A stretch of 64,000 nt of DNA from Methanomassiliicoccus sp. (lineage in GTDB: Archaea > Thermoplasmatota > Thermoplasmata > Methanomassiliicoccales > Methanomassiliicoccaceae). The DNA lies in the NCBI GenBank assembly GCA_033485155.1, contig JAWQJJ010000004.1, positions 1 to 64,000 of the forward strand. Direction: 5' to 3'. Of this stretch, positions 13,949 to 32,657 are shown one piece after another (the stretch's first letter is position 1; each line of letters begins with the position of its first letter). A program made the position numbers and the translations under genes. Below the pieces are notes generated by a model, which saw only the letters and a program-made list of their open reading frames with translations, was not told the DNA's origin and ran no database searches.

Positions 13949-14045
13949 GAACACATATCATCAACCAGCCAGATGTCTCATTGTCTAGATCAGTAGCAAT
14001 CAGGCAATGTTCTAGGCAACGTGCTGGTAAGCCTTTTCCACATTT

Positions 14046-14403: not shown

Positions 14404-14512
14404 CTACATGCACCTTCGCGTGGTCGTTCGAAGATAAAGGACCGTATGATGAGGAAAAAATAGATTTTCTCAATCCGTAAAATATAGATAAACGGGTCGT
14501 CAATTATTCCAC

Positions 14513-16015: not shown

Positions 16016-16231
16016 ATATGGCGACGTCGGCATTGTAGCGTTTCATAAATATCAGAATGTAGGGGCGCCCCCACCACCAGTGCTTACCCTGTCAGGATTA
16101 AAACCGGTGCGGTATTTATGGAATTGAGCAGGTCTTTACGAAAATGGCGGACCAATCGGACGTCCCACCAAAGTCGATAAGGAAGAGTAGGAGGAAGCAA
16201 AGTTAAAAAATCAGATATCTGGATGGGAAAT

Positions 16232-16247
16232 ATGGTGGGTCTGCCCG
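16232..16247. repeat. left attachment site (attL-like copy of tRNA-Pro 3' end)
   Basis: The 16 bases atggtgggtctgcccg are identical to 32642-32657, which is the 3' end of the tRNA-Pro gene including the encoded CCA. Orientation is the same. On its right, bases 16242-16266 form an inverted repeat (ctgccc / gggcag with inner gac/gtc). It marks the likely left end of the integrated element. Confidence 0.7.
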
Positions 16248-16404
16248 GACTTAATATGTCGGGCAGCCAGTCAATCATTCTAGGTTTCAATAGCGATTAT
16301 TCGGGAACAGAGCGAGGCGCTGGATAAACCCCTTCTTTTTATTCATCTAAGAGTCCCCGGCTACTCCATTATTTCTCTCCTTACTTTTTAATAAAAATTT
16401 GGGA

Positions 16405-16502
16405 AACCTGTTATTCTGTTAATATTGCGCATTCCCGTGACAACTGACCAATGATTAACAGGCTGCATTCTCAACCCGTTCATGGCTTGTTAATCTGTTA
16501 AT
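16405..16502. repeat. left-end cluster of attaacagg-type repeats
   Basis: Variants of the 9-mer attaacagg occur at 16406-16414, 16415-16423, 16454-16462, 16486-16494 and 16494-16502, mostly on the minus strand. The same motif is clustered at 31421-31509 at the other end of the element. They could be integrase arm-binding sites or replication repeats. Confidence 0.55.
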
Positions 16503-17299
16503 GAGTACTTTTCCCCAGATTCACCCACCCTGCCGGAAAGCATGTCAACACCTCGTCCCAGCCTAAGTTCATGTAATAGATCATCCGAGATCTCGAAGAC
16601 TGCAAGATTGGACGAACTAACGATGCCCGTAGAGCTTGGGCGCTCATCGATGCTCAATGGCCGGACGCGTCCGCGTGCATCCTCGGCTGCCCTTGGTTCG
16701 GGGGATGCAACTGTCAGTGCAACTCCGGTCGGCGAGGCACAAATCACCAGGAATGGCAAGGCGGTTGGATGAGTTACAAAGGAAGAAGAATGACAAAGAC
16801 CCTGGGTGTCCTAACACTCCGTAATAGACAGTCTTAGGAGTTCCTATCGAACTGAGGCAGGCCTTTTTTTGTAATAAATTAATAATAGATTTTCCGGGCA
16901 TCGGTCTCGATAACGGTACAAAACTGGTGGAAGCACCCAATCGTTGACATTTTTCTAAAAGGAATTTTCGTGATTGATTGGCATGATTGGATTCCTTATT
17001 ATGCAATACATCGCAATGGTCCGCACTCTACATGCCTGATGAATGATTCCACCGCACTTACGAATCCGTCGTGTTCTAATGCCTGAGTGGTGTAATCGGC
17101 TTCCAAATGAGGATAGTATGTGTGGAGCATCGAGTTTAGCTCGACCTTCGCGCTCTTCCAAGCCAACATTCTGAGACACTTGGCAATGTGGGGCCCATGC
17201 TACGGGGATGTGGTTAACGCCGCATATTCCATTCTATTGCCATCATGCTACGGCGCCCTGTTATCGCCCCGCAATGAGCTTGGCGTGTATAGCACCGCC
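16503..17299. other. left part of the element without a firm gene
   Basis: The most coding-like frame is on the minus strand, 16490-16759 (89 codons from a TTG): it ends ISDDLLHELRLGRGVDMLSGRVGESGEKY but I recognise no family and no ribosome site. Other frames here are shadows. Parts of this stretch may be gene remnants. Confidence 0.35.
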
Positions 17300-17491
17300 T
17301 CAGTGCGACCGCCCGGTCCTGTCCTTGCCACTTAGTGAGTAGGCCCACGCATCGCAGAGCGGGCAGCGGAAAGGGATGGTCTCGCCCTCGAGGAACCTGG
17401 TCTCGCGGATGTCCCCGCGCCATCCGCAACGGCTGCATGAGCGGGCATATTGTCTAAAGGCCGGCGCCTGGTATTTACAATAGGCCAGCAC
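17300..17491 (-). CDS. small zinc-ribbon protein
   Basis: This 63-residue protein holds two cysteine pairs: CSRCGWRGDIRETRF and then FRCPLCDAWAYSLSG, a typical zinc ribbon spacing. The start would be GTG at 17491. Codons read like real coding sequence, with G or C in most third positions. It lies 68 bases downstream of the methyltransferase on the same strand, so it may be co-transcribed. A nucleic-acid or protein-binding role is likely but not specified. Confidence 0.5.
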   Translation of the reverse strand: MLAYCKYQAPAFRQYARSCSRCGWRGDIRETRFLEGETIPFRCPLCDAWAYSLSGKDRTGRSH

Positions 17492-17559
17492 CCCGGCATG
17501 TTAGGGTATTGTAAGGGACAGGAAGGTGCGGTAGGTCTGCCGGGCCGCCGTACAATCGC

Positions 17560-18486
17560 TCATATATACTTGTCCAGGCCTTGTCCTTTTGCCTTTTTTC
17601 CACTCTTCTTGTCCAGGTCCGGCCGCCTCGTCACCCCATTCATGCCCGGTATGTTGTTCGAGGAGTGGATAATGTCTAGGTTTTCGAAAGGTGGCAGCGA
17701 CCACTCTTCAAGAATCCTCTTCCGTATGGTCGGCTCTAGAGCATCGTTAATCTCGAAGCCGATGCCCTTCCGCTTCATCGTCTTGGCGACCTTTAAGGTC
17801 GTCCCGCTGCCGAGGAAAGGATCTAGAACGGTGTTACCCTCATTCGAGTAGGTGCTGGTGATGAAGAAGACCAGCTCCTCCGGGTAGCCCGCCTTATAAT
17901 AGCCGATTTCCTTGATGTTGGGGGGCCTGTACGCGGGTATCCTGATTACATTCCCGATGCACCGCCCCTTGGGGTTCTTGTTGTCCGCCCGAGGGTCCGC
18001 CTCGGCGTACTTCTGCTTCACACGTATCTTGTTGAAGGTGTAGTTATAGTCATAGTTCTTGGCAAAAATCAGGACGTTCTCATATTTATTGTCGAACAAC
18101 TTCTCTATGTACCACTTGCACTGGGGTAGAGCGTTGGGGATGTACCAGATAATATTGTCGATGAGCTTCCACTCGGGGGGCATGGCGCAATAAATGTCCC
18201 ATCCGATAGGATAATACCGTCCCTCAGCCCGCCTATTGCCGATGTTGATTGCTAATATGGCATTGTTCGTGGAGACCCTCGCACACTCGCTCCAGACCTT
18301 GTTCATCCTCGCCAGATAACTTTTGTAGTCCTCTTGGCCGATTTGATTCGGATGTCCGTAATCTTTCAAGTTCCAGTATGGCGGGGAGGTTATTATCAGA
18401 TTGACGGCGTTTGTATCGACCATGCTCATGTCCTCGCTGGACGAGAGAAATATGGTCTGATCATCGAGTGAGAACGACTTAACCAT
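17560..18486 (-). CDS. DNA methyltransferase of a restriction-modification system (N4-cytosine/N6-adenine type)
   Basis: The protein methylates an exocyclic amino group on a DNA base using S-adenosylmethionine. The catalytic motif IV is TSPPYWNLKDYG near residue 32, and the SAM-binding motif I is DPFLGSGTTLKVAKTMKRKGIGFEI near the C-terminus, so the motif order is the beta class. TSPPY is most common in N4-cytosine enzymes. The ATG at 18486 is chosen because it follows the upstream gene's stop by one base and has a ggaggaag site. The frame itself runs back to 18567. Length is 308 residues. A divergent nuclease-like gene makes this a restriction-modification pair. Confidence 0.85.
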   Translation of the reverse strand: MVKSFSLDDQTIFLSSSEDMSMVDTNAVNLIITSPPYWNLKDYGHPNQIGQEDYKSYLARMNKVWSECARVSTNNAILAINIGNRRAEGRYYPIGWDIYCAMPPEWKLIDNIIWYIPNALPQCKWYIEKLFDNKYENVLIFAKNYDYNYTFNKIRVKQKYAEADPRADNKNPKGRCIGNVIRIPAYRPPNIKEIGYYKAGYPEELVFFITSTYSNEGNTVLDPFLGSGTTLKVAKTMKRKGIGFEINDALEPTIRKRILEEWSLPPFENLDIIHSSNNIPGMNGVTRRPDLDKKSGKKAKGQGLDKYI

Positions 18487-18487
18487 C

Positions 18488-18673
18488 CTACTTCCTCCGG
18501 GCGAAAGTGTCCGGATTCTCTTTCTTGACCGAGTCTGAAATGAATGATTTTTCGGCCAACCAGGCAAGAACGATATTCTTGATTATGGTTGCCTGAGTGT
18601 TGCCCATCTTTCCGCGGAACTTCTCTATTAGTCTCAATTGCTCGTCGCTTAATGTTACTTGGACCTTGGGCAC
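18488..18673 (-). CDS. ribbon-helix-helix DNA-binding protein
   Basis: The 61-residue protein reads MPKVQVTLSDEQLRLIEKFRGKMGNTQATIIKNIVLAWLAEKSF, a CopG/Arc-type ribbon-helix-helix: one beta strand, then two helices. It stops one base before the methyltransferase start, so the two are translationally coupled. It may repress the methyltransferase operon and the divergent nuclease gene from the shared 104-bp promoter region at 18674-18777. Control proteins of this kind are common in restriction-modification loci. Confidence 0.7.
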   Translation of the reverse strand: MPKVQVTLSDEQLRLIEKFRGKMGNTQATIIKNIVLAWLAEKSFISDSVKKENPDTFARRK

Positions 18674-18777
18674 ATCCAGGTATCCTGAACGACCAATAAA
18701 TACTTGCCGAGATGTGTATGATTGGATTCTTTTAGTATGGAATCCGAATAATAATTAAATGGCTATTCTGGCTGTTC

Positions 18778-19878
18778 GTGCCTAGCAATGGGGAAGATGT
18801 TAAGGAATTTTGGGACAACGTCTGGGATCATGTAAATGAGCCAATTTTGGAAGGCTTTGATGTTCCAGACGAAATACCCATGGATATGATGGCTGAGATA
18901 ATAAAAATGGCCATCTGTTCAAAAAAAGGAGACATAGAGGGTGTAAAACAGATTATTGACAGGGGCTCAAAGATATGGGTAGATGGCAGGTTCCTTTACC
19001 TTGTCCTGCAACTATCGGGCCTTACAAGAAGCAAGATACTTACCGACCTTCGAAAAATCGCATCTGAAATCGATATCGTCGTCCCTCATGAGACGAAGAC
19101 CTTGCCAAAACGAGAGAAGTTATGGATTCCAGCTTTAACGGTCATCGCCGAGAGATTCGGTATTGTTATTGAGCCTCTGGAGGTCGTTACACCGGATGTT
19201 ATCTCAGCGCTAAACAGGGCTACTTGGCCTGGCTACATCCGCCAGGAAAAAGCAAAGCGGGGGGGCCATGCTTGCGAACAAAGGCTGGCAATGGCGTTTA
19301 GGGCCACAGGCATCCCATTTGTGCCCGAGGAGAAGGTGAGTAATCCGCTATGCGGAGACATACAGATTTTTGGTGAATCCTTTGATGTCATCGTTCCCAG
19401 CGAGTCCAGTCCAGCCGTATGTTTTAAATCTACGGTTCACACCGCGGCCATTGGTCAGTATGGGGAAAGCAAAGACTCCTTGGAAATCATTACTGCCGTA
19501 CAAAAATTCCAAGAAAAATTCCCCAATAACCGACCATTGATTATGGCCTTGGTCGATGGCGTCGGCTATAGCAGTAACCCCTCGGGACTGAAAGACATTC
19601 TGAAAAATGCTGATGAGTTCTGCCAATTTGCTACGCTATGGAAGGCGGTAGTTGTGGTATCATCCCAGATTAGGGACGAAGGCCTGAGAATACATCTGTC
19701 CGAGGATGACTTTGAACGCTATGATGAATTCTTGTCAAGATATGGCTATGATGAATCCAAGAGGCTACATGCCATCCCCGAGAAACCGATAAAAATAGGC
19801 CGTGCCCTATTCGAGCGTTTCAAGCCGGGGCCGCTGGGAGAGCCAAAGAAAGATCGAGTCCAGTTAATATTTCAATAG
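18778..19878 (+). CDS. putative type II restriction endonuclease
   Basis: The 366-residue protein diverges from the methyltransferase operon. Its N-terminal half is helical, with a possible DNA-reading region. From about residue 165 the stretch GGHACEQRLAMAFRATGIPFVPEE, then CGDIQIFGESFDVIVPSE and a Lys-containing strand AVCFKSTVHTA, resembles a PD-(D/E)XK nuclease core (Glu, Asp, then Lys). Position and context are the main evidence for a restriction enzyme. The start is GTG at 18778. The gene is visibly AT-richer than the chromosome around it. The target sequence cannot be read from the sequence. Confidence 0.6.
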   Translation: MPSNGEDVKEFWDNVWDHVNEPILEGFDVPDEIPMDMMAEIIKMAICSKKGDIEGVKQIIDRGSKIWVDGRFLYLVLQLSGLTRSKILTDLRKIASEIDIVVPHETKTLPKREKLWIPALTVIAERFGIVIEPLEVVTPDVISALNRATWPGYIRQEKAKRGGHACEQRLAMAFRATGIPFVPEEKVSNPLCGDIQIFGESFDVIVPSESSPAVCFKSTVHTAAIGQYGESKDSLEIITAVQKFQEKFPNNRPLIMALVDGVGYSSNPSGLKDILKNADEFCQFATLWKAVVVVSSQIRDEGLRIHLSEDDFERYDEFLSRYGYDESKRLHAIPEKPIKIGRALFERFKPGPLGEPKKDRVQLIFQ

Positions 19879-20388
19879 CAATGGGAATGATGCGGCACCC
19901 CGCCCCCCCTCCTTTTAATTTTTTCTGTTGGTGGTGGGGCTGAACATGGGGCGGCCTTAGGGTCGGTCTCCATCGGTATCCTCAGGTTTGTGAATGGCAA
20001 TCATGGGTCTGTTGGGGAGTAGCCCAGCCTATGCCGCTGGCCGTGGACTGTGTCTCTCCAACTCACGATTGGGATGTGGTTGGGGCCTTCTTAAGCTCGC
20101 ATAACCACATCGAGTTGCAATGCGACCCTCATCGCTTCGGGATCCGATAGCATGAGTTACATGCTAAGAAAGATACTCAAGATGTGTGCTATGAGACATC
20201 ATGTTCCGATATAATAGGTAAAAAGGATTTGAGGATATTCATCACGATGCCAGGTAGACCACTTACGGAGTTAATCCACTTGCGCCCGTATATAGGGAAT
20301 CGGCCCATCTGCTGAAGCAGCCAGCTTACTGCTAACCTCTCTTCAAGGCACAGCTAATCCGATAGGCCTTCTCTCTGTTATGGGGGGC
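19879..20388. other. intergenic region in the element
   Basis: About 500 bases between convergent genes. A T-rich stretch ccttttaattttttct at 19911-19926 may end transcription of the nuclease gene. No further gene or repeat was seen. Confidence 0.4.
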
Positions 20389-23300
20389 CTACTCTGGTGC
20401 CACCCCCGCATATGGATAGTCGGCAGTGGCGTTATATAGCATCATGCTGCACACATAGGTCCAACCATTCGCATAGATCTTCTGCTCCATGTACGTATTT
20501 CTATTCCAATTCTCCAATCCGACCTCTCCCCAAAAGAGAGGGTGGCCAGCAGAACAATTGGTCAATGCGTTCACCTGATAAGAAGTAACTCCGTTGTCGG
20601 TCCTGTATAGGTGGGCTTGCCATACCTCGAGACCGGTGTTCATTACCAGAGTAAGATTAGCTTTATTCGTCGGGCTCGAGCTATCAATCGTGTTATTGTC
20701 AGTCATGTTAGCTTGAACTGCTGTCCCCATCGTCCTAAGGTATCCTTGGTTGTGCCCGCTAGTCTGACGTGCCACACCATTAGACCACCCATGGAATAGA
20801 CCTATCCTATTATGCCAATATATGTAATTGGCATGATTATGATCTGGCTCGTTCCACAAGTCGATCATAATGGGCCTATGAGATAAGGTCATGTTGTTTA
20901 GGATGCCCATAGTACTGTTGGCATACCGTATGTATTCCCAATAGGCCGCAGTGGTATTATCAAACGGATTACTGGCTTTGTTGAAAGCAAATATGGGATC
21001 GTTGCTTTTATTATTCGCAGATCCGGCTATGACGAGCACGATCTTGACATTATGGGCATAGGATCGGTCGCACATGGCCACTAGCATATCGGGATATTTG
21101 TTATCGGTGGTATGGTTTTTCCATGCATCATACTGTATACTTGTTCCCCATAAATCGGCGGCTCCTACCCGAACCAGGTCAATGTCATAGTATTGACAAT
21201 ATTCGAAGTACTTATCCCAGAACGTGGCCTCGTTGCTACATCCCGTGATGCTCATATAACCTCCTGGGCCGGGGAAGTTCATATTCAAGCCTGCCTCTCC
21301 AGCAACGTTATTGATGTAAGCATTGATCGCATGGGCCAATGCAGTCGTCTCGTCAACGCCGAAGGACCGATTTGCCATTGAGTCCCGTCCCAGACGGAGA
21401 TCGAATGTTGTCGATGCCACTTGTACCGGCGCGGTTACATCGACAAAGTGGGTCTTGCTCACGGTTACGGCAATGACGTTACCAACATGGCATCCCGGCA
21501 TCAAGTAGTAGCCGTTGATGTCCGTGTATAGCGTACCGCTTCTAGTGGTAATTGTAGCATTGGCTATTGCTTCACCACTTACCGCATCATAGATGTGGCC
21601 CGCAATGTTAACCGAAGTCCCAGTATAGCTCATTGTAAAGCTGCTATTGCCGTACCCAGCATACTGTCCGGCGATACCTGTACCAGAGTGAGAATTGTAG
21701 TTAGTAGCCGTCGCAGTAAATGCGAAGCTGCCGGACGCTCCGGTACTTATCGCGTAGAAGCCATTGGTATCGGTGACATATGAGCCGTGGCCGGGGCAGG
21801 TTACGGTAGCGCCAACGATCGGATTCCCCGTTGTACTATCAGTGATGTAACCTGCGAAACTATAGCCAGTGTTGATGTACATCGGAGCCCAGACTGGACC
21901 CCAGTTCCCTGCCGAAGTCTCATAGATTGGCCAGAATTTCCAGATTCCCGCTGGACTTTGAAGAGTTGTATCGACAACTATGTGCTGTCCCCCTCCCACC
22001 ACGCCGCCGGCTTTCTGAGTGAGCGTGGAGGCTATTAGGCCGGCCGATAGGGCAGTATTGCTTGGGTTCCTGATACCCAGGCCAATCTGTTGATAATTGT
22101 CGGACCCGGTTCCTGAGTTGGTATTGAACACAGTAAACGAAGCGTGGACCGTGCTCCCCTGCACCGGATTTGCTACCGTAGAGTATAAGCCCCAACGATA
22201 GAAGAGATCAGTGCTGTATCCAGATGTAGCATGGTTCTGCCAAGAGCTCAGCTGATAATAAAAAGTTGGATGGATATCCAACCACTCGCTCACTCCAGTA
22301 GTTCCCTGGTAATTGAAGGTCGGCCAGAGTGTATATTCACCAGAGAACTGAGCTGCAAAGGTGTATGAGTAAGAGTACTGAGATCCTGCATTGATAGTGA
22401 TGGGTCCTTGGAATCCGATATTCCAAGCATTCCCATTGCTATCCCTAACTACAAGGGAGATCGTATTGAATGTCTTAGATGTGCCGCCGAGATTTTCGAT
22501 ATCAAACCTAGCTGTCACTTGACTACCAACGGTGAAAACGTTGTCTGTTGTCGACACCTCCATATTCTTTGCTATAATGTTCAATCCGGCCCTTGTCTCA
22601 GCCGCGGATGGTCCATAGTTAATATATCGCATGGGTAGGACTTCACACGACCAGGATTTCATTCGAGCGATGTTAGCTGTTTCAAAATTTAGGGTCGATG
22701 TAGAATAGTATGTGCCATACATCCAAGTCGCTGAACCACCATTGTATTGGCCATAGGCTTCATCAGCATTGTATGTAAGCGCTAGGCCGTGTCCCATCAA
22801 CCACTCGTTCTGTGGCGAGGTGGGCATCATCTGCATGACAGCGCATCCATACCCATCATAGTCCGATCCATAGAGTAATTTGAGCCCGGCACCGGTCTCG
22901 TATGCTTTTACAATTCCGCCTGAGAGGGTTTTACCGGAACACAGTATTGCAGAGTCCCTTTCACTCGCCGCCACGTTACCAGGCGTAATAAGATACGATC
23001 TGAATTGTTCCAGGAGGGTTGCTGAATCTGTTGATGTACAAACGTCATTGGGCAACTGTACTGCCCTTGAGATATGTTGATATATACCGGTCTGCTGCTC
23101 AAACCTCGCTTCGATATCGAAGAAAGGGGTCACGATATCTGACCACCAATATTGATGTGTGCTCCAGTAGGTGTAGTCACACGCTACGAAGACCTCAGAC
23201 TTATAAGTTGTTCTCTCATTTGAGTATGCTGCCATAGTTTGAACAACATTAGCTCCGCTTCCTTGGACTGAACAATCTGAAGCCACCGCTTCCCTCGTAC

Positions 23301-23925
23301 CATCCTGAGGTGCTACAGTGCCGGAAGAATTGCCGGTCGATGACTCCTCGGATGCAGAGATAGACGTCGCCACAGGGACATAAGTACTTCCAGATTGAGT
23401 TGACACAGGAACCGTGACCGCAGCACTCCCATCCAGACTCACAGGGTTGTTAATATCTCCAGCTGCATATGCTGCGTAATATCCTGATTGACCGGTTCCG
23501 TCTAGCGCATCTACATAATATGTCTTGCCATTTGGCATATCGACGGCAAAGTGCATCTTTCCAGACGTTATGCTGGATGTTACTAGGTTTGCACCACTCA
23601 GCTCGATACCGATGTATGTCCTTAATTCCCCTCTTGTTTGAGCCTTAGAAAAGCCCATACCATTAGCATAACATATGGAGAAATCGGACGATAGTATATC
23701 CTTCTCTTCAAGGACGAATGAAACTTTCTGGCCATCTATTGAAAGAACTATCGGTTCACCTTTCGTTATGGACTGCCCAATCGCCGTCTTGTCCATTTTG
23801 AATGTATCGCTTAGGGAAACGCCCTTGAACTCGCCGCTTGGCTGAGGAGTTATTGATGCTGCCGAGACCATTGGAGCCATGGTGGTAGGGACCAACATGG
23901 CAAGACAGCCCAAAACCACACACAA
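20389..23925 (-). CDS. large secreted protein with carboxypeptidase-regulatory-like repeats and C-terminal GH5-like glycosidase domain
   Basis: A hydrophobic signal segment (GCLAMLVPTTMAPMVSAAS) is followed by about 650 residues with no family I can name, including a CARDB-like beta region. Two carboxypeptidase-regulatory-like beta domains follow (GYITDSTTGNPIVGATV near 690, GHIYDAVSGEAIANATI near 775). The last 320 residues resemble a glycoside hydrolase family 5 barrel. The acid/base motif is DLWNEPDHNHANYI (Glu1026) and the nucleophile motif FWGEVGLENW (Glu1134). Length is 1178 residues from the TTG at 23925. An ATG at 23960 would give a standard N-terminus MGRSKK but is one base out of frame across an A7 tract. 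Probably a surface or secreted polysaccharide-active protein. Confidence 0.7.
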   Translation of the reverse strand: MCVVLGCLAMLVPTTMAPMVSAASITPQPSGEFKGVSLSDTFKMDKTAIGQSITKGEPIVLSIDGQKVSFVLEEKDILSSDFSICYANGMGFSKAQTRGELRTYIGIELSGANLVTSSITSGKMHFAVDMPNGKTYYVDALDGTGQSGYYAAYAAGDINNPVSLDGSAAVTVPVSTQSGSTYVPVATSISASEESSTGNSSGTVAPQDGTREAVASDCSVQGSGANVVQTMAAYSNERTTYKSEVFVACDYTYWSTHQYWWSDIVTPFFDIEARFEQQTGIYQHISRAVQLPNDVCTSTDSATLLEQFRSYLITPGNVAASERDSAILCSGKTLSGGIVKAYETGAGLKLLYGSDYDGYGCAVMQMMPTSPQNEWLMGHGLALTYNADEAYGQYNGGSATWMYGTYYSTSTLNFETANIARMKSWSCEVLPMRYINYGPSAAETRAGLNIIAKNMEVSTTDNVFTVGSQVTARFDIENLGGTSKTFNTISLVVRDSNGNAWNIGFQGPITINAGSQYSYSYTFAAQFSGEYTLWPTFNYQGTTGVSEWLDIHPTFYYQLSSWQNHATSGYSTDLFYRWGLYSTVANPVQGSTVHASFTVFNTNSGTGSDNYQQIGLGIRNPSNTALSAGLIASTLTQKAGGVVGGGQHIVVDTTLQSPAGIWKFWPIYETSAGNWGPVWAPMYINTGYSFAGYITDSTTGNPIVGATVTCPGHGSYVTDTNGFYAISTGASGSFAFTATATNYNSHSGTGIAGQYAGYGNSSFTMSYTGTSVNIAGHIYDAVSGEAIANATITTRSGTLYTDINGYYLMPGCHVGNVIAVTVSKTHFVDVTAPVQVASTTFDLRLGRDSMANRSFGVDETTALAHAINAYINNVAGEAGLNMNFPGPGGYMSITGCSNEATFWDKYFEYCQYYDIDLVRVGAADLWGTSIQYDAWKNHTTDNKYPDMLVAMCDRSYAHNVKIVLVIAGSANNKSNDPIFAFNKASNPFDNTTAAYWEYIRYANSTMGILNNMTLSHRPIMIDLWNEPDHNHANYIYWHNRIGLFHGWSNGVARQTSGHNQGYLRTMGTAVQANMTDNNTIDSSSPTNKANLTLVMNTGLEVWQAHLYRTDNGVTSYQVNALTNCSAGHPLFWGEVGLENWNRNTYMEQKIYANGWTYVCSMMLYNATADYPYAGVAPE

Positions 23926-23960
23926 TCCGTATATGATGCTCTTTTTTTGGATCGACCCAT

Positions 23961-24486
23961 TTCTAATAATCCCACCCCATGAATAAGTTGGAGTGGAACA
24001 TCTCGATTAGCGCTTCCGCTAACCAATGATAGTATTCTCTCCATTCTCCAACTTCCCAATCAAGCATATATTTTATGTAATATTTAATTACACATCATAT
24101 TCCACTTGATATTGAACACGGAGCAAAGCCTCCAGAAAGCCTCTCGAATTCAATCGATAAACACCGCCTTCCTCAGTGGGATCGATGAGTGGGGACCTCC
24201 GCACCCTGCGCCACTCCCCTGACCCGGCGCTATGAGCCAGGGATGTCTTTGGCATTAAGCCCTACATCGAGATCGATAGGGATTTAGTTGAAACATCAAC
24301 ATGTTGCCTTTCCACTAGAGAAGTGTCAGGCGTTGAGCGAGGAACAACAATCTGAAAAGGGCTGAACGCTTGCCTTTTTTTATACTGAGAGGTAGGATAG
24401 TAAAGAACTCCGGTATATCGATATTGCTGGCCTACAGTTTGGGGGACAGTAAGGTGCAACAGGAGAGGGGGGCCTGCTGAGGTCTA
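23961..24486. other. intergenic region upstream of the surface protein gene
   Basis: About 525 bases. On the minus strand an AT-rich block near 24066-24092 (taatattacataaaatatatgc-like) could be the promoter of the large surface protein gene. No gene or strong repeat was seen in the rest. Confidence 0.4.
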
Positions 24487-25689
24487 TTATTTGGGGGGAT
24501 TAATTTGTTTGTCACCAATCATCGCCATAAACCTTTCTTCATATTCGACCTCAAGTTTGTCGATGAGTTCATCTATCTCCTTATCACTCTTGTCAACAAA
24601 TAACAGTCGTTGGTAAAGCCATCCAAACCCCCTTTTTCGTCCCTGCGTCGGTGTGTTTCCATCTTCCGTCGCCTTGGGAGCGATTGTCACTAGGTATTCA
24701 ATCGTATCATTTATGTCCTCAATAGGAAAAACAGGCATCTCTACAGGTTTGGGACTTTTTTCTATTTGCCCCACTAGCTTGGGCCTATATGCAAATCCAA
24801 TAAAACTCTTCGATACCACATCCTCTCCGCAAACGCTTAACCGGAATGCAATATAGTCACTGGTTGTAGCTAGGTAAACATCGAAAAGATCTATCATCAC
24901 ATTGGAATATATGGCCATTTCCGAGCTCGTGAATTGAACAAATGGCCATGGCAATTGCCCGTGACCAATATATCTCTCATTCACCTTGGGATTGATGAGG
25001 TCTTCAAATAAATGGCAACCGAAGAACTCGATCTTGATGAAGGGCCACTTTGCGAGAGATCTGCCATCGTTCTTAATCCTGACTGATAGTTGAAGGAGGT
25101 GTCGGCCAGATGGATCCTTGCTAACGATCAACTGCGGCCTTAGGTCGGGCCTCAGCCTCTTGCCGAAATGGTAATCGACCTGATAGTGCTCCATAGGCTC
25201 TGACCTAGCCCCAATCCTCTCGTAATACTGGTGGTCGTCGCAACAGGACATGTGCGGACTGAATGGGCTCGACGGGACATCGACGATGAAAATATTACTT
25301 GTTCCATTGTCTATTTGGATTGATACAACGTCAATATCGTTCACATGAGGCTGAATGCCTGACAATATGACCTGACTAAACCACTCTTTTGTGTAACATT
25401 TTTCATTATTCCCCTCTATGCCTACCGGGATCTTACTCCGACCATCTCTGGCATTCTGTTCGGATATGCCAACTAAGAGAAGGCCACCTGACGAGTTCGC
25501 AAAAGCAGAAATCTCTTTTCCAATTTCGGCTCGCTTAGTTAGTGCCTTAATGCCTTTATATTCAAGCGTCAAGTTCTCTTCAATCTTCCTCATAACGAAA
25601 TCGCTAACATCATCCTCAGAGATTTCGAAAAGAGATTTTCCGAAGTATGTGTTAGCAAAGTTCTTTTGATCGCGTAAATCGGCGGGCAT
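24487..25689 (-). CDS. AlbA_2 (Schlafen-like) domain protein
   Basis: The 400-residue protein has an AlbA_2/Schlafen-type domain at about residues 33-160: ENLTLEYKGIKALTKRAEIGKEISAFANSSGGLLLVGISEQ is the family's E-x-K and NSxGG-x-LxxGI motif. The C-terminal 240 residues (beta-rich, then a charged helix) are not recognised. AlbA_2 proteins bind nucleic acids or nucleotides and occur as regulators and in anti-virus systems. Here the gene sits alone in a mobile element, divergent from a recombinase-like gene, so a defence or regulatory role is only an inference. Confidence 0.7.
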   Translation of the reverse strand: MPADLRDQKNFANTYFGKSLFEISEDDVSDFVMRKIEENLTLEYKGIKALTKRAEIGKEISAFANSSGGLLLVGISEQNARDGRSKIPVGIEGNNEKCYTKEWFSQVILSGIQPHVNDIDVVSIQIDNGTSNIFIVDVPSSPFSPHMSCCDDHQYYERIGARSEPMEHYQVDYHFGKRLRPDLRPQLIVSKDPSGRHLLQLSVRIKNDGRSLAKWPFIKIEFFGCHLFEDLINPKVNERYIGHGQLPWPFVQFTSSEMAIYSNVMIDLFDVYLATTSDYIAFRLSVCGEDVVSKSFIGFAYRPKLVGQIEKSPKPVEMPVFPIEDINDTIEYLVTIAPKATEDGNTPTQGRKRGFGWLYQRLLFVDKSDKEIDELIDKLEVEYEERFMAMIGDKQINPPK

Positions 25690-25812
25690 CAGGGGCTAAG
25701 GCACCAGCTATCAAGATAAAGGTTGCTAGTATCATGAATTGTAGTCATGTCATTGATCTCTTTCATTGCCCTGGGCGACAGATATCAATACTATTAACTA
25801 GAACGAAAGTTA

Positions 25813-25828
25813 TTACCTAAATAGGTAA
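25813..25828. promoter_or_regulatory. 16-bp perfect palindrome, candidate operator
   Basis: ttacctaaataggtaa is a perfect palindrome 22 bases upstream of the ATG at 25851, inside the divergent region shared with the AlbA_2 gene. The position over a likely start-of-transcription zone suggests a repressor site. Confidence 0.5.
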
Positions 25829-25850
25829 AATGTTCCTATAAGAGATAGAT

Positions 25851-26399
25851 ATGGGCAGTACCAAATTCCCAATACTGGACGAAAACTTCTACCTCAGGAT
25901 GATGGGTTCCTGCAACGATGACGAGGAGCGCGGCTTGGTCACCATCTTCGATCTAACCGGCATGCACGTCTCAAGCATGTGCGAGCTCGGTCCTGAGAAC
26001 CTGATCCGGCAGGGCGGGAAAACCTACATTCGATGGGTTCGGCCGAAGACCAGGAAGACGCTTCAAGCGCTGGTACCGAACGACCGCGTCAAGATCATCG
26101 AGAACTTCCTGAAAATGAGGCGAAAAACCCGGCAGCATTACCACTTTTTGGTGAAGAAGATTGGCCTCAAGGCCGGGTATCAGGACGTCAGTCCTATGAC
26201 CTTCCGCCATAACCGGTGCCTTCGCGGCCTCACCACAGAAGGCTACTCGATCTATGAGATCCCGCAGGTCATGGGTTGCACTCTCGACGTCGCGGTCCGC
26301 AATTACGCTAAGCTCAGGGAAGATCAGCTCGCTCGAGAGCAAGCAACAAGCAACAAACCCAGGAAACCCAGGTTCGGAAGTCGCTTTCGCAAGCTTTGA
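25851..26399 (+). CDS. short tyrosine recombinase-like protein, catalytic core only
   Basis: The 182-residue protein corresponds to only the catalytic half of a tyrosine recombinase. The region TGMHVSSMCELGPENL aligns with the usual TGLRxSEL box, but the catalytic Arg is His39. Box II is SPMTFRHNRCL, where the Arg is kept and the first His is not. The final part VMGCTLDVAVRNYAKL has the nucleophile-like Tyr152 but lacks the preceding His. It is therefore probably unable to recombine DNA and may bind the repeats beside it. The C-terminus is basic. The ATG at 25851 follows agagatagat. Confidence 0.6.
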   Translation: MGSTKFPILDENFYLRMMGSCNDDEERGLVTIFDLTGMHVSSMCELGPENLIRQGGKTYIRWVRPKTRKTLQALVPNDRVKIIENFLKMRRKTRQHYHFLVKKIGLKAGYQDVSPMTFRHNRCLRGLTTEGYSIYEIPQVMGCTLDVAVRNYAKLREDQLAREQATSNKPRKPRFGSRFRKL

Positions 26400-26837
26400 G
26401 CCTGGGTTTCGTCGGGTTATCCAGTGGGGTTTGGTGCTAGGTTCGATTTAGGTTTGAAAACCAACCTAAAACCAAACCGGATCGATCATCGTTTTCTTGG
26501 TTCCGAGCTCGTTGCTTGGTTTGAAACCAAGATCAAACCAAGCGGATCGATCTCTGGTTGACACCTCAGGAAGAGTAATTGGGTTTGCCTTGGGTTCCGA
26601 GCCGGGTAACCTAAACCTGGGTTATCGGTAAATATCAAAAATATCTTGTTTGCGGATTATAAATTGAGCCAGCAAAAACGCAAAACGCAACAGGGGGGTG
26701 CTATTGAGTTTTAGAGATAGATAAGAGAGAGAACAAGTAACTCTAGTATGTAGCTCGGAGCGAGATCGTTGCGTTTTCATCCTCGGCTCGATTGCCTAGG
26801 TCCCTAGATCGAAAGATCTCAGAAGTAATAATAAATC
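26400..26837. repeat. iteron-like repeat region, candidate replication origin
   Basis: Two related units of about 36 bases lie at 26451-26487 and 26518-26552. Each starts ggtttgaaa, contains further aacca motifs and ends cggatcgatc. The second starts in a near-palindrome (ttggtttgaaaccaa, 26516-26530). The pair ttggttccgagctcg (26497-26511) and tgggttccgagccg (26591-26604) is also repeated. AT-rich sequence follows from about 26635 to 26665. The region lies between the recombinase-like gene and the replication genes. Confidence 0.55.
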
Positions 26838-27287
26838 TCATGCTAAGGGGCCCTTACCTTCTCGCCGTCTCTGGTACTCCCTGAAGATCTTCTCCACTAT
26901 CTCGGATATGGTCATTCCAGTGCGTCTCTTTTCCAAGAGTAGCATAGCATTGATCTTGGGATCCACGTGAACGCTGAGATGGTAGGTCTTCCTGGCCCCC
27001 ACCTGGCCCAAGATAATAACGACGGCGAGTTGGGTCGAACTGAGGTCTAGGGGAAACACGCCGAGCAAGCCGACGGGCACGACTAGGGTGACGAATATCA
27101 GGCACCGCTGTCGCCATTGATTCTGGATGTGGTCAAGTTCACCACAGAATGGTAGATTGCTCGATACTCCTAACCATGGTCGGTATTGCTCCACGGCCTC
27201 ACGTGCGTAAGTCATGATCGGATGCCTCTCAAGTACATCATCGATCAGGAAGATAAGCGTGAGGACAAATGTACGACTATTTCCCAT
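26838..27287 (-). CDS. hypothetical protein with hydrophobic middle and ribbon-helix-helix-like C-terminus
   Basis: The 149-residue protein has a hydrophobic stretch at about residues 60-95, which may cross the membrane, and a C-terminal segment KTYHLSVHVDPKINAMLLLEKRRTGMTISEIVEKIFREY that reads like a ribbon-helix-helix domain. A TATA-like tatattaaatttta lies just upstream of the ATG at 27287. The combination is unusual. The N-terminal part may be wrong-frame or decayed sequence joined to a real DNA-binding tail. Function unknown; possibly the element's copy-number or promoter regulator. Confidence 0.45.
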   Translation of the reverse strand: MGNSRTFVLTLIFLIDDVLERHPIMTYAREAVEQYRPWLGVSSNLPFCGELDHIQNQWRQRCLIFVTLVVPVGLLGVFPLDLSSTQLAVVIILGQVGARKTYHLSVHVDPKINAMLLLEKRRTGMTISEIVEKIFREYQRRREGKGPLA

Positions 27288-27374
27288 AAAGGCTAAAATT
27301 TAATATACCCAAGCTCCATTCTTGCATCGAGCTTGGTCTCCCGCCGGGAGAGGTGTAATGGGGCCCGGCGGCAC

Positions 27375-27566
27375 ATGACTTCCACGGCTCAGGGAGGGAT
27401 GACCGCCTCAGCCGCCTCCATGAACTGGCAGCGATCGGAGTGCCTGGAGACGATGGACTTTTCTAGTCCGCCCCCTGATCTCCCGAAACGGCGCCACCGC
27501 AGTATCTCTCCAGACTCCGGGCCCGAGCGCATCGCCCACACCGAAGCCAGGGAACCGGGGCCTTAA
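27375..27566 (+). CDS. possible small protein, unrecognised
   Basis: An open frame of 63 codons starts MTSTAQGGMTASAASMNWQ and is rich in Pro, Ser and Arg. It has no ribosome site I can defend and no family. An antisense frame covers the same bases. It is listed only because this part of the element has nothing better. Confidence 0.2.
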   Translation: MTSTAQGGMTASAASMNWQRSECLETMDFSSPPPDLPKRRHRSISPDSGPERIAHTEAREPGP

Positions 27567-27811
27567 GTACCTGAGTCGCGGCTTGAAGATGGCCCTATAG
27601 TCGCAATCGCCCATCATTTTCATTAACATGCATATGCAAGAGTTATTGCCTTAGAATTCCTCCAAGGAACTTCGATCATATTGTCTCATCATGGCGTATA
27701 ATCTAAGACCATGTTGAATGAGATGAGTAAGTTATTGTACCGGGACGGTGCTCGACTTTTAAATTAAAAATAACCGAATACAAGGTTAAGACAGAGAGAA
27801 GCCTGGGATAG

Positions 27812-27867
27812 TCCAGCAGAATCGTTGCTACCAACGTTTGGCGACGAGTATCAACGATCCTGCTGGA
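27812..27867 (+). promoter_or_regulatory. leader hairpin before the replication operon
   Basis: tccagcagaatcgttg (27812-27827) pairs with caacgatcctgctgga (27852-27867) at 15 of 16 positions, with a 24-base loop. The 3' arm ends at the A of the ATG at 27867. The fold could hide the start codon or serve as an operator. Confidence 0.6.
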
Positions 27868-28163
27868 TGGTCCGAAACAAACTGGAGGCAACCAACTTGT
27901 CTGAGACCGGTACGAACAAAGTAACAACCGAATTTAATAATATCGATTCTCGAGGTTCAGTTTTAGTCCACGAATCGCGCGGGAATCTGGCAATTTTAGT
28001 TCAGACTGACATCTCCAGGATGCCTGAGATCCTGCACGCCATCGAGCGCATCCCAGGCACCAGGATAATCTATCATCGGGCCAGCCTCGGCCGATTATAC
28101 ATCGTGCCTGAGGAAAACAACGGCTCGAGGTATGATGGGGGCGACCCCGGGAGGGAGCCATAG
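27867..28163 (+). CDS. hypothetical element protein
   Basis: The frame opens at a TTG at 27825, but the ATG at 27867 right after the leader hairpin is the natural start and gives 98 residues. The core DSRGSVLVHESRGNLAILVQTDISRMPEILHAIERIPGTRIIYHRA looks like a small alpha/beta fold. I recognise no family. It begins a three-gene cluster with the next small gene (two bases apart) and the replication protein, so it may take part in replication or its control. Confidence 0.55.
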   Translation: MVRNKLEATNLSETGTNKVTTEFNNIDSRGSVLVHESRGNLAILVQTDISRMPEILHAIERIPGTRIIYHRASLGRLYIVPEENNGSRYDGGDPGREP

Positions 28164-28165
28164 GC

Positions 28166-28417
28166 ATGCAGGCTTCCTCAACCAAGTCCTCAGAGGCCCC
28201 ATCTGAGCTTAAACCGATTAGCTTTATCTTCTGCCGAGCTACCCCCAAAGCCCTTCGTGAGATCAATGCTCTTCTTGAACGATTGGGTGAGAGGGGAGAG
28301 ATCTGCTTGCCATCCTATCAATCCTCAACAGTAGATGAGTATCGAGGTTTCCTCGTCATTCAGGAAGACCACATTCTGAAAGTGATTGACAAGATCAGGT
28401 GGTGGTTCCGTGTTTGA
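28166..28417 (+). CDS. hypothetical element protein, overlaps replication gene
   Basis: This 83-residue protein (core PISFIFCRATPKALREINALLERLGERGEI) starts at ATG 28166, two bases after the previous stop, with a gggaggga site. Its end overlaps the GTG start of the replication protein by eight bases, which indicates translational coupling. No family is recognised. The small size and position suggest an accessory replication factor. Confidence 0.55.
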   Translation: MQASSTKSSEAPSELKPISFIFCRATPKALREINALLERLGERGEICLPSYQSSTVDEYRGFLVIQEDHILKVIDKIRWWFRV

Positions 28418-31394
28418 TCAGGTTGGTAACCTCAGAGCCTACCTGGATGCTCACCCGGGAACCACGATGAAGGATCTCCGCAGGTTGGAGGGGACTGATG
28501 CGGCGCAGATTCAGAAGATGGCGACCAGGTTGAAGGAGCGCGGAGAGCTCGTCGAGCATCCGAAGACCAAGGCTCTCGCTTTCAAGGATCAACTATTGAG
28601 GGCCAGCAAGGGCGTTGAGATCCATGAGGTTACTGTGGGGATCCCTGAGGACCTGCCAAGTATCCGCGATAGCAACGGGAAAGATAGGCTTCTGAGGAAG
28701 GAGGATCTAGTGCGGCTGCCGGACAACACCGCCCGTGCGCTGATTCTCGGAGGGAAGGCCGAGAAGATCGACATCTCGGCGGCGGAGACCGAGAAGCTGA
28801 CCTCCAATGTGCCGGAGGTAGGGGATGCCCCCATCGCCACTCTAGGGGCTTCCACGGGCATCGAGATGAAGGTGGCACCCCCCATCCCCGAGAGGCTGCG
28901 AGACTTGCGGATCAGGTTCGTAAGAGTCCGCAGGGTGGGGGAGATCAAACCGAACGGGCAGCCCGCCAACGGTAAGGAAGCTATGGGAAACGGCTGGAAT
29001 GAATGGGAGAACGCATACCCCTTTAATTCCCTCCAGTTAGCGAAGCACATCGCCGACGGAGGCAACTACGGCGTCCTGTGCGGTCACGGGCTGATCGTCA
29101 TCGACGCCGATTATCCAGAGGTCGCCGCGACTGTCGATGAGAGGCTGCCGAAAACCTTCACCGTCAAATCGGGCAGGGATGGTGCTGGAGGTTTTCACTA
29201 TTACTACTGGTGCCCGGATCTACCTAACCCAATCAGGCTAGAGGTCCCAGGCGCCAAGAAGGGCGAGGGCGGGGACGTTCAATCCACAGGGAAGCAGGTC
29301 ATCGGTCCAGGCAGCACGCACCGGACCGGGCGGAAATACGAGATCGTTAAGGACCTACCCATAACCGAAATTGCCGCCGAGCAGCTGCTTGCTGCTCTCC
29401 AGGACTTTTTACCTCCGCCAGAGATGGACACTCCGGAGGACATGAAAAGACACGTCCCCGAGGGCGGGGACGACCTCGATCAGCTGCGGATCGAGAAAAT
29501 CGTCCCGCTCGACAAGCTCACACGGCACGGACATAAGTACCAAGGGCCGTGCCCCTGGCACGGTAGTGAGACGGGCTCGAACTTTACCATCGACCTGGAT
29601 AAGAACGTCTGGCATTGCTTCCGGCACAGCACCGGAGGCGGGCCGATGCACGCCATCGCCATTCAGGAGAAGATCATCGAGTGTAGCGAGAGCGTGCGGG
29701 GCGGCCTGAACGGAGAGAAGTTCAAGGAGGCCTTGAAGGCTGCCCAACAGAAATACGGGCTGGTACTGACATCGAGAGTGGCCAAGGGAAAGGCCAATGG
29801 CTCGATGAAGGGTATCGTCGATCACACGGCCGAGCAGGTCGATTCGCTCATCCGCCTGGCGAAGCAGGGCGGACAGGCGGAGTTCTTCCACAACGCCGCC
29901 AACATGCCTTTCGTTCGTGTGTGGGAGGGCAATCACCACGAGGTAAAGGCCATCTGCGAGCAGGACTTTTCGGACTGGATAAAGTATCGCGCGGTTAAGA
30001 AGACTGGTAGGGCCCCGAAGAAAGATCCGCTGAATCAGGCCATCGATACTGTTTCGGTCCTCGCAAGGTTCGAGGGGGAGGAGCGGGAGGTCTACATCCG
30101 AAAAGGCGAGCACGATGGAGCATTCTTCTACGATTTATGCGACGATCAATGGCGGGCCGTCCGCATCACCGCAGAGGGCTGGGAGATTGTGGACGACCCA
30201 CCAGTGATGTTCCGGCGCTTCGACAAGATGCGACCCCAAGTAATGCCCATCTCCGGTAGGCCGGAAGCACTGGATGACCTGGTCAGGCTTGTCAACGTTT
30301 CGGAAGAGTCGAGGAGGCTGCTCAAGGCTCACATTATCATATCACTAGTGCCTCGCATCCTCCTCTATTATGCCTTCTTCTTAGGCCCGCAAGGCTCGAC
30401 CAAGAGTACCGGGACGGACATATTCAAGGCGACTGTGGATCCCGGCAGCGATAATCGCGATTCGCTGCCCGCAAAGGTCGATGACCTCGACCTTCATTTG
30501 TCGAAGAGATGTGTCGCCGCCTACGACAACATTTCAAGAATAACGGCCAACCTCTCTGATACCCTCACAAGGGCGTCCCGCGGTTCATCGTCAAGGCGAG
30601 CGCTGTTCACGAACAACGATGAGAACAGTCGCAGCTACCACACCCAGATAGTCCTCAATGCAATCGGCTTAGAGAGTGGCGTCCGCCCTGATTTACTAGA
30701 CCGCACTATCATCTACAATTGTGAGGTAGTGGCAGAGGAGCAGCGCCTGGGCCAGGAAGAGGTCGACTACGAGATCGCGAACCTCATGCCCTACGCGTTC
30801 GGTGCCGCCCTGGACCTGCTAGTTAAGGCGATACCGATCCATGAGGGGCTCAAAGCCCGCAAGGGCTGGAGCCCTCGCCTCAAGGACGCTTACCTTTGGA
30901 TGATGGCCATCAACAAAGCGATGGCGAATGACTCCGCAGGTGGAGAAGAATCATTTGAGAAGATGTTTAAGGGAGTCATCGAGCGGAGGGACTCGGACGC
31001 GATGGAGGGCGACCCGCTGGCTGTCGCTATCGAGCATGTCGCCTCTCTATGTGGCTTTATCGGCACGGCAACGGAATTACATGATTGGATCAACGATCCC
31101 AGTAGGAACATCCCTAAGATCTGCAACATCGAGACCAAGGATAAGAACTGGCCGAAGGGGGGCATTGCGTTGGGCATCCACCTGCCCCGCATTATCGCCC
31201 CCCTGCGAAGCCGCGGCACTTATGTCTATCAATGTTACCGCTACGAGCTAGAGAAGGATTTTGACGCTAAGGGGCTCAAGGTGCTCGACAGGCCTAAGGC
31301 TGACCTCACTAGATATCGCGAACAGGAGCGGATGATAGTAATCTCGAAGAGGGAGGTCAAGAAAATCGAGCCTTCTTCGACGGGGGCCCAATGA
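28410..31394 (+). CDS. primase-polymerase / helicase fusion replication protein
   Basis: The 994-residue protein probably starts element replication. An N-terminal winged-helix-like segment (residues 1-60) precedes a Prim-Pol domain at about 170-330: the metal motif is LIVIDADY (Asp232, Asp234), followed by GGFHYYYW and GDVQSTGKQVIGPGSTH. A zinc-knuckle-like unit follows (GPCPWHGSETG, then WHCFRHSTGG). The C-terminal half has a helicase ATPase core: Walker A GPQGSTKST (Lys665), Walker B-like CVAAYDNIS and DLLDRTIIYN. The GTG at 28410 is chosen for its aggtggt site and coupling with the upstream gene. The frame itself opens at 28386. The domain order matches rep proteins of archaeal plasmids and viruses. 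Confidence 0.85.
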   Translation: MFDQVGNLRAYLDAHPGTTMKDLRRLEGTDAAQIQKMATRLKERGELVEHPKTKALAFKDQLLRASKGVEIHEVTVGIPEDLPSIRDSNGKDRLLRKEDLVRLPDNTARALILGGKAEKIDISAAETEKLTSNVPEVGDAPIATLGASTGIEMKVAPPIPERLRDLRIRFVRVRRVGEIKPNGQPANGKEAMGNGWNEWENAYPFNSLQLAKHIADGGNYGVLCGHGLIVIDADYPEVAATVDERLPKTFTVKSGRDGAGGFHYYYWCPDLPNPIRLEVPGAKKGEGGDVQSTGKQVIGPGSTHRTGRKYEIVKDLPITEIAAEQLLAALQDFLPPPEMDTPEDMKRHVPEGGDDLDQLRIEKIVPLDKLTRHGHKYQGPCPWHGSETGSNFTIDLDKNVWHCFRHSTGGGPMHAIAIQEKIIECSESVRGGLNGEKFKEALKAAQQKYGLVLTSRVAKGKANGSMKGIVDHTAEQVDSLIRLAKQGGQAEFFHNAANMPFVRVWEGNHHEVKAICEQDFSDWIKYRAVKKTGRAPKKDPLNQAIDTVSVLARFEGEEREVYIRKGEHDGAFFYDLCDDQWRAVRITAEGWEIVDDPPVMFRRFDKMRPQVMPISGRPEALDDLVRLVNVSEESRRLLKAHIIISLVPRILLYYAFFLGPQGSTKSTGTDIFKATVDPGSDNRDSLPAKVDDLDLHLSKRCVAAYDNISRITANLSDTLTRASRGSSSRRALFTNNDENSRSYHTQIVLNAIGLESGVRPDLLDRTIIYNCEVVAEEQRLGQEEVDYEIANLMPYAFGAALDLLVKAIPIHEGLKARKGWSPRLKDAYLWMMAINKAMANDSAGGEESFEKMFKGVIERRDSDAMEGDPLAVAIEHVASLCGFIGTATELHDWINDPSRNIPKICNIETKDKNWPKGGIALGIHLPRIIAPLRSRGTYVYQCYRYELEKDFDAKGLKVLDRPKADLTRYREQERMIVISKREVKKIEPSSTGAQ

Positions 31395-31420
31395 GGGGCC
31401 AAATAGGTTCTAGTAACTGG

Positions 31421-31509
31421 ATTAATAGGTTCTCCAACAGGTCGTGCCCTCAACTTGTTAATGAGGTGCCAGATGTCGTATTAACAGCCTTAATTAACAG
31501 GTTAACAGG
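31421..31509. repeat. right-end cluster of attaacagg-type repeats
   Basis: Variants of attaacagg occur at 31421-31429, 31480-31488, 31493-31501 and 31501-31509, with a reverse copy at 31454-31462 (cttgttaat). The cluster lies just upstream of the integrase gene and mirrors the cluster near the left end. Confidence 0.55.
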
Positions 31510-31565
31510 TTGGTGAGCAAATCTCCGCGCTCGCTACCTATGATGCTAATAGGGCGTCTTCCGAT

Positions 31566-32642
31566 ATGGCAGGTGAGGCGAAACCTCGTGCACGAAGGAG
31601 TCGCCTCAATAGTGCCGACAAGGAGGTCGATTCCCTGCGATTAGGAAGGTACCCCTTCCGCGGGGGCATCGATCCGTACATCGAGAGCAGAAAAGGAACT
31701 TGGAACCCAGAAACTACTATGAAAGAGGAGCGAAGGAAGTTGGAGCAGATTGCTAGAAACCTCGAAGAACTGAAAGCGCAAGGTCGCATCAAGTCCACCG
31801 ACCCTCGGCACCTCACCCGCGCCGACATTCAGGAATATATGGTCGAACTGCGTAAGGCTGACCCAAACTTTCAGACCAAGCAGATGGGTCGTTTGAAGAG
31901 GTATCTAGCATTCTACAAGAACCATGTGATTGAGGATATGAAGATCGAAGGTGTAAGAATGCCCAAAACCCACAAGAAGCCGATCAGGGCTTTGTCACAA
32001 GATGAGCTCATTGCCGTCTTTGGATGCCTTTATGAGCTGAAGGGTTGGACCGGCTCTGTCGCCCGGGGGATGCTTGCACTATACTTCGGCACCGGACAGC
32101 GACCTTCGGAGCTGAGAGAAGCCCACTTTGAGGATCTTAACCTCAAGAAGCGGACCCTTTTTATCCGTAAACCCAAAGGTCTGGGCAACTGGGCAAGCCC
32201 GGAGACGGTCGACATCATCCGTGAAGACATGCTGCCCCTGATCGAGCGGTACGTCCGAGAGCGAGCTACCCATCTACGAGCTAGGGGCGTCAGTTCTGCC
32301 GTGGCCCTCTTTCCAAACACTATTAGCGAGAAGGGGTTCTACTCTGCAAACCGATTCAACCAGATTAAACACAAGGTCGAGGTTCTTTCGGGAGTGGAGT
32401 TCAAGCTCAAGGACCTCCGCTCAACCTTGACAACCATCACCGTGAACGGTGACATGAGCCGGATCATACCCATGTCGGCCCAATTGAGGCATTTGGATCC
32501 GAACAATACGCTGAAGTTCTACAACAAAATAGAACGCGGCGTAGCCAGCAAGAAGCTCAAGGACCTATGGAGGGAGACACCAGTAATAATGCACGGACCC
32601 CCCTCTATTGACAATCGTTATGGAACATCTGGATATAGTTGA
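31566..32642 (+). CDS. int: tyrosine recombinase (element integrase)
   Basis: The 358-residue protein catalyses site-specific insertion into tRNA-Pro. Residues about 75-140 form a SAM-like DNA-binding domain (LTRADIQEYMVELRKADPNF). The catalytic domain follows: box I is YFGTGQRPSELREAHFEDL with Arg179, the beta-hairpin Lys region is RKPKGLGNWASPE, and box II is FKLKDLRSTLTTI, where Lys replaces the common His. The C-terminal part is AQLRHLDPNNTLKFYNKI with His and nucleophile Tyr319. The stop codon abuts the tRNA-Pro 3' end, so the attachment site lies at the gene's end and the gene is intact in the integrated state. Confidence 0.9.
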   Translation: MAGEAKPRARRSRLNSADKEVDSLRLGRYPFRGGIDPYIESRKGTWNPETTMKEERRKLEQIARNLEELKAQGRIKSTDPRHLTRADIQEYMVELRKADPNFQTKQMGRLKRYLAFYKNHVIEDMKIEGVRMPKTHKKPIRALSQDELIAVFGCLYELKGWTGSVARGMLALYFGTGQRPSELREAHFEDLNLKKRTLFIRKPKGLGNWASPETVDIIREDMLPLIERYVRERATHLRARGVSSAVALFPNTISEKGFYSANRFNQIKHKVEVLSGVEFKLKDLRSTLTTITVNGDMSRIIPMSAQLRHLDPNNTLKFYNKIERGVASKKLKDLWRETPVIMHGPPSIDNRYGTSGYS

Positions 32643-32657
32643 TGGTGGGTCTGCCCG
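32642..32657. repeat. right attachment site (attR, tRNA-Pro 3' end)
   Basis: The 16 bases are identical to 16232-16247. They cover the last bases of the tRNA-Pro acceptor stem with its CCA and the adjoining integrase stop codon. The full tRNA is on this side. Confidence 0.7.

Follow-up and report, generated by a model that had tools for sequence, protein, structure and literature searches.

A candidate integrated plasmid in a tRNA-Pro gene of a Methanomassiliicoccus archaeon, and the short inverted arms that probably guide its integrase

The sequence analysed here, referred to as the window, is the whole 64,000-nucleotide stretch at the start of contig JAWQJJ010000004.1 of Methanomassiliicoccus sp. 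Within it, the evidence supports reading positions 16233–32642 as a plasmid-type element integrated at a tRNA-Pro gene of a Methanomassiliicoccus-type archaeon. Two short inverted arms, located outside the recombining core, probably guide its tyrosine integrase (Int). The explanation as a whole, that of an integrated plasmid with an arm-guided Int, retargeting by core replacement and an exchangeable, largely defence-related cargo, is one in which we place considerable confidence, and it draws on boundaries, gene content, a sister element, arm positions and target changes on an integrase tree, all read from the DNA and its relatives. The element fits a known type of cryptic integrated element, and what stands out is an arm geometry common to the whole family, combined with cores that can be exchanged. 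In the literature searched, no description of integrated plasmids of Methanomassiliicoccus-type methanogens was found.

The element is bounded by a 16-bp direct repeat, ATGGTGGGTCTGCCCG, which is exact at 16232–16247 (the left attachment copy) and at 32642–32657 (the right attachment copy), both on the + strand, the latter being the 3′ end of a tRNA-Pro with anticodon TGG. ARAGORN places this tRNA at 32643–32720 on the − strand, where it has been kept whole after integration, with its CCA genome-encoded at 32643–32645. Across the 2.8-Mb genome the repeat has just two exact copies, at 16232 and at the tRNA-Pro(TGG) 3′ end, and a search allowing one mismatch adds one further copy; this lies on contig 15, at a place also matched in the search for tRNA-Pro. 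The tRNA-derived part of the repeat amounts to 15 bp (16233–16247 and 32643–32657), the A at 16232/32642 being a single matching base beyond the tRNA, and the element measures 16,410 bp. The integrase stop codon occupies 32640–32642, so that the gene terminates directly at the tRNA. A preliminary description of this DNA had reported the repeat, its identity with a tRNA-Pro 3′ end and an integrase ending at the tRNA, and each of these points agrees with the coordinates above; its further claim, that the boundaries are complete, gains from the homologous ends of a sister element and from a motif that recurs family-wide at a fixed left-end position. Between 13 and 34 kb no Rfam match was obtained. 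The empty tRNA-Pro site that the same description proposed to seek in related genomes was recovered in part, as a match over 46 bp only (L028, in congener G003); a clean site was not found, since no searched congener has the window's left flank beside tRNA-Pro(TGG). The genes left of 16232 did not occur left of tRNA-Pro(TGG) in the congeners searched, and the joined attP pattern had no match in viral contigs.

The sister element (L036) lies in the tRNA-Pro(GGG) gene of G003 and is approximately 16.7 kb long. Its Int is 74% identical to that of the window, while the helicase half of its replication protein and a small recombinase are each 64% identical. The left ends of the two elements align, and the repeat found at both ends of L036 is TGGTGGGTCTGTCCG, the window counterpart being TCTGCCCG; the L036 repeat thus carries its own tRNA's one-base difference.

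Int (31566–32642, + strand; PF00589) is encoded by one open gene of 358 amino acids within the element and is intact, with R179, K204, R285, H309 and Y319 assigned by an integrase alignment in which an N-terminal GR(Y/F)PF region is also conserved. The protein fits the residue pattern R...KxxR...Y (R179, K282xxR285, Y319), which a review of archaeal integrases gives for the SSV type (PMC8371274), and departs from the pNOB8-type pattern, R...YxxR...Y, by its KxxR. An SSV-type suicidal integrase was considered and rejected, the int gene being unsplit by integration. A distant relative of Int (26% identity) is encoded on a 39-kb IMG/VR contig (L257, IMGVR_UViG_3300048598_000487), where the integrase ends at a tRNA-Gly and CCGGTAT stands at the place expected of an arm.

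Replication is assigned to a protein of 1002 amino acids (28386–31394, +) containing a Prim-Pol domain (PF09250, E 2.6e-16), a CHC2 zinc ribbon (PF01807) and a C-terminal part read as a helicase, in agreement with the Prim-Pol/helicase gene reported earlier. Upstream of it, a small protein (27825–28163, +) is kept in most related elements, with 31–42% matches in L036, G003:C4, G009:C13 and G006:C25. Within the replication protein, the primase half varies independently of the helicase half (window 28386–31394 compared with L036:13171–16338 and L090:7110–9326); L036 has the window's helicase half and N-terminus only, its primase half being different, and an element of G003:C4 has the window's primase half at 55%. 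When the protein was searched against plasmid records, as had been advised, the best match was to pH6Ac of Methanothrix harundinacea (NC_016637), with 28.7% identity across 70% of the protein's length. This free plasmid, a 12-kb circle, encodes a DNA methylase alongside its Prim-Pol/helicase-type protein and has an RHH gene; an integrase is absent from its listed genes, and it comes from another order of Archaea. Single-sequence scans for the Prim-Pol protein in the genome and in viral contigs returned no match. Among the main ORFs, neither virion nor conjugation families were detected with Pfam, PHROGs or NCBIfam. Direct repeats at a tRNA with an abutting integrase, a replication protein of its own and a gene set lacking virion and conjugation families are among the features by which a cryptic integrated element is recognised, and they sit well with the plasmid-like element of about 16.4 kb, free of recognised virion genes, that had been suggested beforehand.

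Two other views of the element as a whole can be weighed against this. The 16-bp identity might be due to chance, in which case 16232 would be no boundary and the low-GC island would be one larger foreign region. The repeat is indeed short, and the low GC (0.504 within the element, compared with 0.624 across the 13 kb past the tRNA) runs on leftward from 16232 to about 4.5 kb. Nevertheless, the repeat is unique in 2.8 Mb, the left arm stands at its fixed position and the low-GC stretch to the left is better explained by older insertions, and at 16232 the sister element aligns with its own left end; a chance repeat is already contradicted by that element, which occupies another tRNA gene, and the idea was rejected as scarcely credible. 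The element could also be a provirus remnant or a viral satellite which has retained integration and replication genes and obtains its packaging from a helper virus. Transfer genes were not found, hence mobility must be supplied from elsewhere, and the Int relative on the IMG/VR contig beside tRNA-Gly points in the same direction. Against a viral origin stand the lack of any virion family in Pfam, PHROGs or NCBIfam, the circular plasmid on which the replication protein's best archaeal relative resides, and the defence-gene cargo of three related elements, which together render it distinctly unlikely.

The arms lie outside the core on either side. The left one, AGCCAG (16265–16270, +), occupies positions 33–38 from the core, the same position as in related left ends at many tRNA genes, and the right one, CTGGAT (32629–32634, +), falls within the last integrase codons (Ser-Gly-Tyr) with its CTGG at −14 from the core. 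Positions were counted from the encoded CCA, the discriminator base being position 4, and left ends were picked by the longest repeat, the motif not being used. Of 26 left ends, 23 carry CCAG at 34 or 35, compared with a mean of 0.33 and a maximum of 4 in shuffles (n = 2000), a comparison that overstates the independent evidence because tRNA-Lys sites make up 11 of the 26 and kinship is kept in the counts. The 59 right ends, of which 53 have CTGG at −16 to −13, span tRNA-Pro, Ala, Gly, Lys, Leu, Arg, Met, Val, Glu and one called Cys (assignment uncertain), to which the left ends add Ile and Ser; within Methanomassiliicoccales, related integrases with arms use ten or more tRNA isotypes. In fuller form, the int-side consensus is TCTGG(A/C)TA and its counterpart within the far end is A(G/T)CCAGA, the two being mutual reverse complements and roughly symmetric about position 12, the acceptor/T-stem junction. 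The smallest shared core comprises positions 3–15. A pattern joining the Pro core to the left arm occurs at 6 places in 147 genomes and its reversed control at none. Of these six places at least one (G134:C98) may not mark an element end, its sequence running on like that of a tRNA. In a second integrase class the motif has the opposite orientation, with CTGG(A/C)T at 37 on the left and GCCAG on the right, and both classes occur in other orders of the host's class. In 39 tRNAs without a detected Int, CTGG was present in 16, mostly at integrase scars, left-end repeats or other elements, so that this set is an unclean control for the right arm.

Common arms could alternatively reflect the shared descent of element ends and of integrase coding sequence, rather than recognition by the integrase. 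The integrases are related, making the sample non-independent, and in many elements, the window's included, the right arm encodes the final Int residues Ser-Gly-Tyr. However, in 28 of the 53 right ends bearing the motif (L093 excluded) the int gene as called stops at least 30 bases before the tRNA while the distance between motif and tRNA stays constant, and coding alone is thus inadequate to explain the motif. The left arms, moreover, are on the opposite side of the element, where there is no integrase coding, the bases flanking both arms vary, and the second integrase class has the motif inverted. Shared descent is, on balance, a fairly improbable account, and guidance of Int by the arms is preferred. 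The literature searched, which lay mostly outside subscription journals, yielded no arm pair common to integrases that enter many different tRNA genes.

How the integrases of this group distribute over their targets is apparent from a tree of 56 sequences, built by a quick search with SH-aLRT support only. The tree requires at least 18 changes of target isotype, and 24 when isoacceptors are counted, several of the isotype changes being forced by well supported branches; the window Int and the sister Int, which pair with a support of 100, use different tRNA-Pro genes. Given that the arms are constant and the core is supplied by the tRNA, integrase lineages may change their tRNA gene by core replacement. 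In the mechanism proposed here, the tyrosine integrase would recombine a core of about 13–16 bp that copies the tRNA-Pro(TGG) 3′ end, with the result that the tRNA gene stays complete and the element's other end bears a short copy. Int would bind the arms (int-side TCTGG(A/C)T and far-side A(G/T)CCAGA), perhaps via its N-terminal GR(Y/F)PF region, with strand exchange taking place within positions 3–15. The element would then be able to excise, the circle replicating by its own Prim-Pol/helicase protein, and could acquire a new core and with it a new tRNA target. A broader proposal, put forward tentatively and with rather more doubt than belief, is that a clade of archaeal integrases, extending through Methanomassiliicoccales and present in other orders of the class, recognises constant inverted arms almost irrespective of the core, which would serve as a replaceable address of about 13 bp. 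If true, one imprecise recombination could make a new tRNA 3′ end the target, providing a simple rule for target change by integrases. The archaeal review calls target switching "somewhat murky" (PMC8371274); with some sixty related integrases of one arm geometry, in which the core follows the target, the question becomes testable by short-core swaps.

Comparison with known systems places the element among several partial counterparts. The cryptic integrated elements of Thaumarchaeota include fusions of Prim-Pol and SF3 helicase as well as R-M cargo (Krupovic et al., 2019, PMC6563490), and resemble the present element in their tRNA-targeting tyrosine integrase, Prim-Pol-helicase protein, R-M cargo and lack of virion and conjugation genes (PMC6563490). 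They belong to another host class and use other integrases, whereas here close integrases have fixed-distance arms across tRNA targets and a conserved, catalytically altered recombinase is present. A further likeness is the arraying of archaeal elements at one site (PMC6563490): tandem arrays at tRNA-Ala genes comprise three elements in G003:C4 (L089, L090) and two in G009:C13 (L091, L092). In these arrays the integrase classes alternate, each with matching arm orientation. With the SNJ2 and pNOB8 types the element has in common an integrase gene that is intact after integration and a short core at the tRNA 3′ end, of 13–14 bp in SNJ2, whose integrases are restricted to Halobacteria according to Badel et al. 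(2021, PMC8371274); in the sections consulted, no common arm motif is described for either type, and archaeal att sites are stated to need bases beyond the shared repeat. The lambda attP/attB system, as outlined in the same review (PMC8371274), likewise confines its accessory sites to the element's DNA, where they lie beyond a core of about 15 bp. It differs in that the present elements have one short arm per side, near the core, with close relatives differing in target, and no known IHF or Xis-like partner was identified.

The interior of the element is occupied by cargo. An N6/N4 DNA methyltransferase (17560–18567, −; PF01555, E 2.9e-41; PADLOC Type II MTase, E 2.4e-43), the true start of which is probably near 18489, is overlapped at its start by a small RHH-like protein (18488–18673, −), and its divergent neighbour is an orphan protein of 366 amino acids (18778–19878, +). 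The orphan had no relative in any search and no family or structure match, and its AlphaFold model is poor (mean pLDDT 35); it is named a candidate endonuclease partner by its position beside the methylase. The region 17560–19878 may accordingly encode a Type II R-M system, and of the R-M genes announced in the preliminary description the methyltransferase is confirmed by PF01555 and PADLOC, the endonuclease having only its place beside the methylase. The RHH genes announced with them stand as weak calls, the RHH_1 matches of the small protein (E 0.008) and of the C-terminal part of a second one (26838–27287, −; E 0.06) both falling below Pfam's cut-off. Further cargo consists of a secreted-looking protein of 1178 amino acids with carboxypeptidase-regulatory-like repeats (20389–23925, −; PF13620/PF13715), part of which has a 33% relative near tRNA-Pro(GGG) in G002, and a Schlafen AlbA_2 protein (24487–25689, −; PF04326, E 1.5e-15), with a 36% relative adjoining a related integrase in G048. 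The sister element has a Type ISP restriction enzyme and a SIR2 protein (PDC-S25) as its cargo. The small recombinase recurs in a third element, at a tRNA-Gly (G006:C25), which carries AbiL-like genes and Type I R-M, and one element of the G003:C4 array carries a Type IIG enzyme. Genes of putative defence function thus appear to be frequent and exchangeable cargo, the replication and integration end being kept, and among Methanomassiliicoccus-type methanogens the elements appear to be carriers of R-M, Abi-like and SIR2 defence genes.

Between the cargo and the replication module lies a stand-alone recombinase catalytic domain of 182 amino acids with an altered active site (25851–26399, +; PF00589, E 1.5e-4), and its homologues hold the same place (L036:9980–10564 and L094:14947–15486). 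Aligned to XerA (5hxy), the first Arg is replaced by His39, the His of HxxR by Met116 and the next His by Cys143, while Arg119 and Tyr152 are retained; all five positions are invariant in the three homologues. The catalytic residues expected of an active tyrosine recombinase are therefore incomplete. A profile comparison with Int gave no match, though XerA matches, and the AlphaFold model is poor (mean pLDDT 45). Being conserved in three elements, the protein was rejected as a remnant, and it is suggested, at low confidence, to be a DNA-binding accessory, perhaps a directionality factor.

The tRNA-Pro(TGG) site appears to be a layered hotspot, in which an older remnant spans 13937–16232. An older attachment remnant, TGGTGGGTCTGC, is located at 13937–13948 (+), a 12-bp match to the tRNA 3′ end, and is followed by the left-end sequence of an older element, with an AGCCAG arm at position 31; the segment 13937–13998 shares 78% identity with a remnant's left end in the congener G005. 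Immediately outside the present element, 16202–16231 (+) is the scar of an older integrase 3′ end and includes its old arm, CTGGAT, at 16219–16224. Over 46 bp, core included, 16202–16247 is 85% identical to an integrase tail and core at the same tRNA in G003 (L028), and integrase tails persist at tRNA-Pro(TGG) in several congeners. Judging by the scar adjoining the left end and the remnant at 13937, the element appears to have entered next to the scar that an earlier one had left. The G005 remnant (2.1 kb; G005:C47:14032 and 16141, L024) is likewise situated at tRNA-Pro(TGG), and its left core is of the GGG type, TCTGTCCG, as if the element had come from a tRNA-Pro(GGG) gene. Farther left, an HNH-like protein (window 6681–7079) has a 75% identical relative elsewhere in the genome (G000:C9:1087–1416, L096), next to an integrase scar at tRNA-Arg, and the left part of the window may consequently hold further old insertions. 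The low-GC stretch also includes a polyphosphate kinase gene (window 8674–10821), with related sequence (67%) on contig 8 of the same genome.
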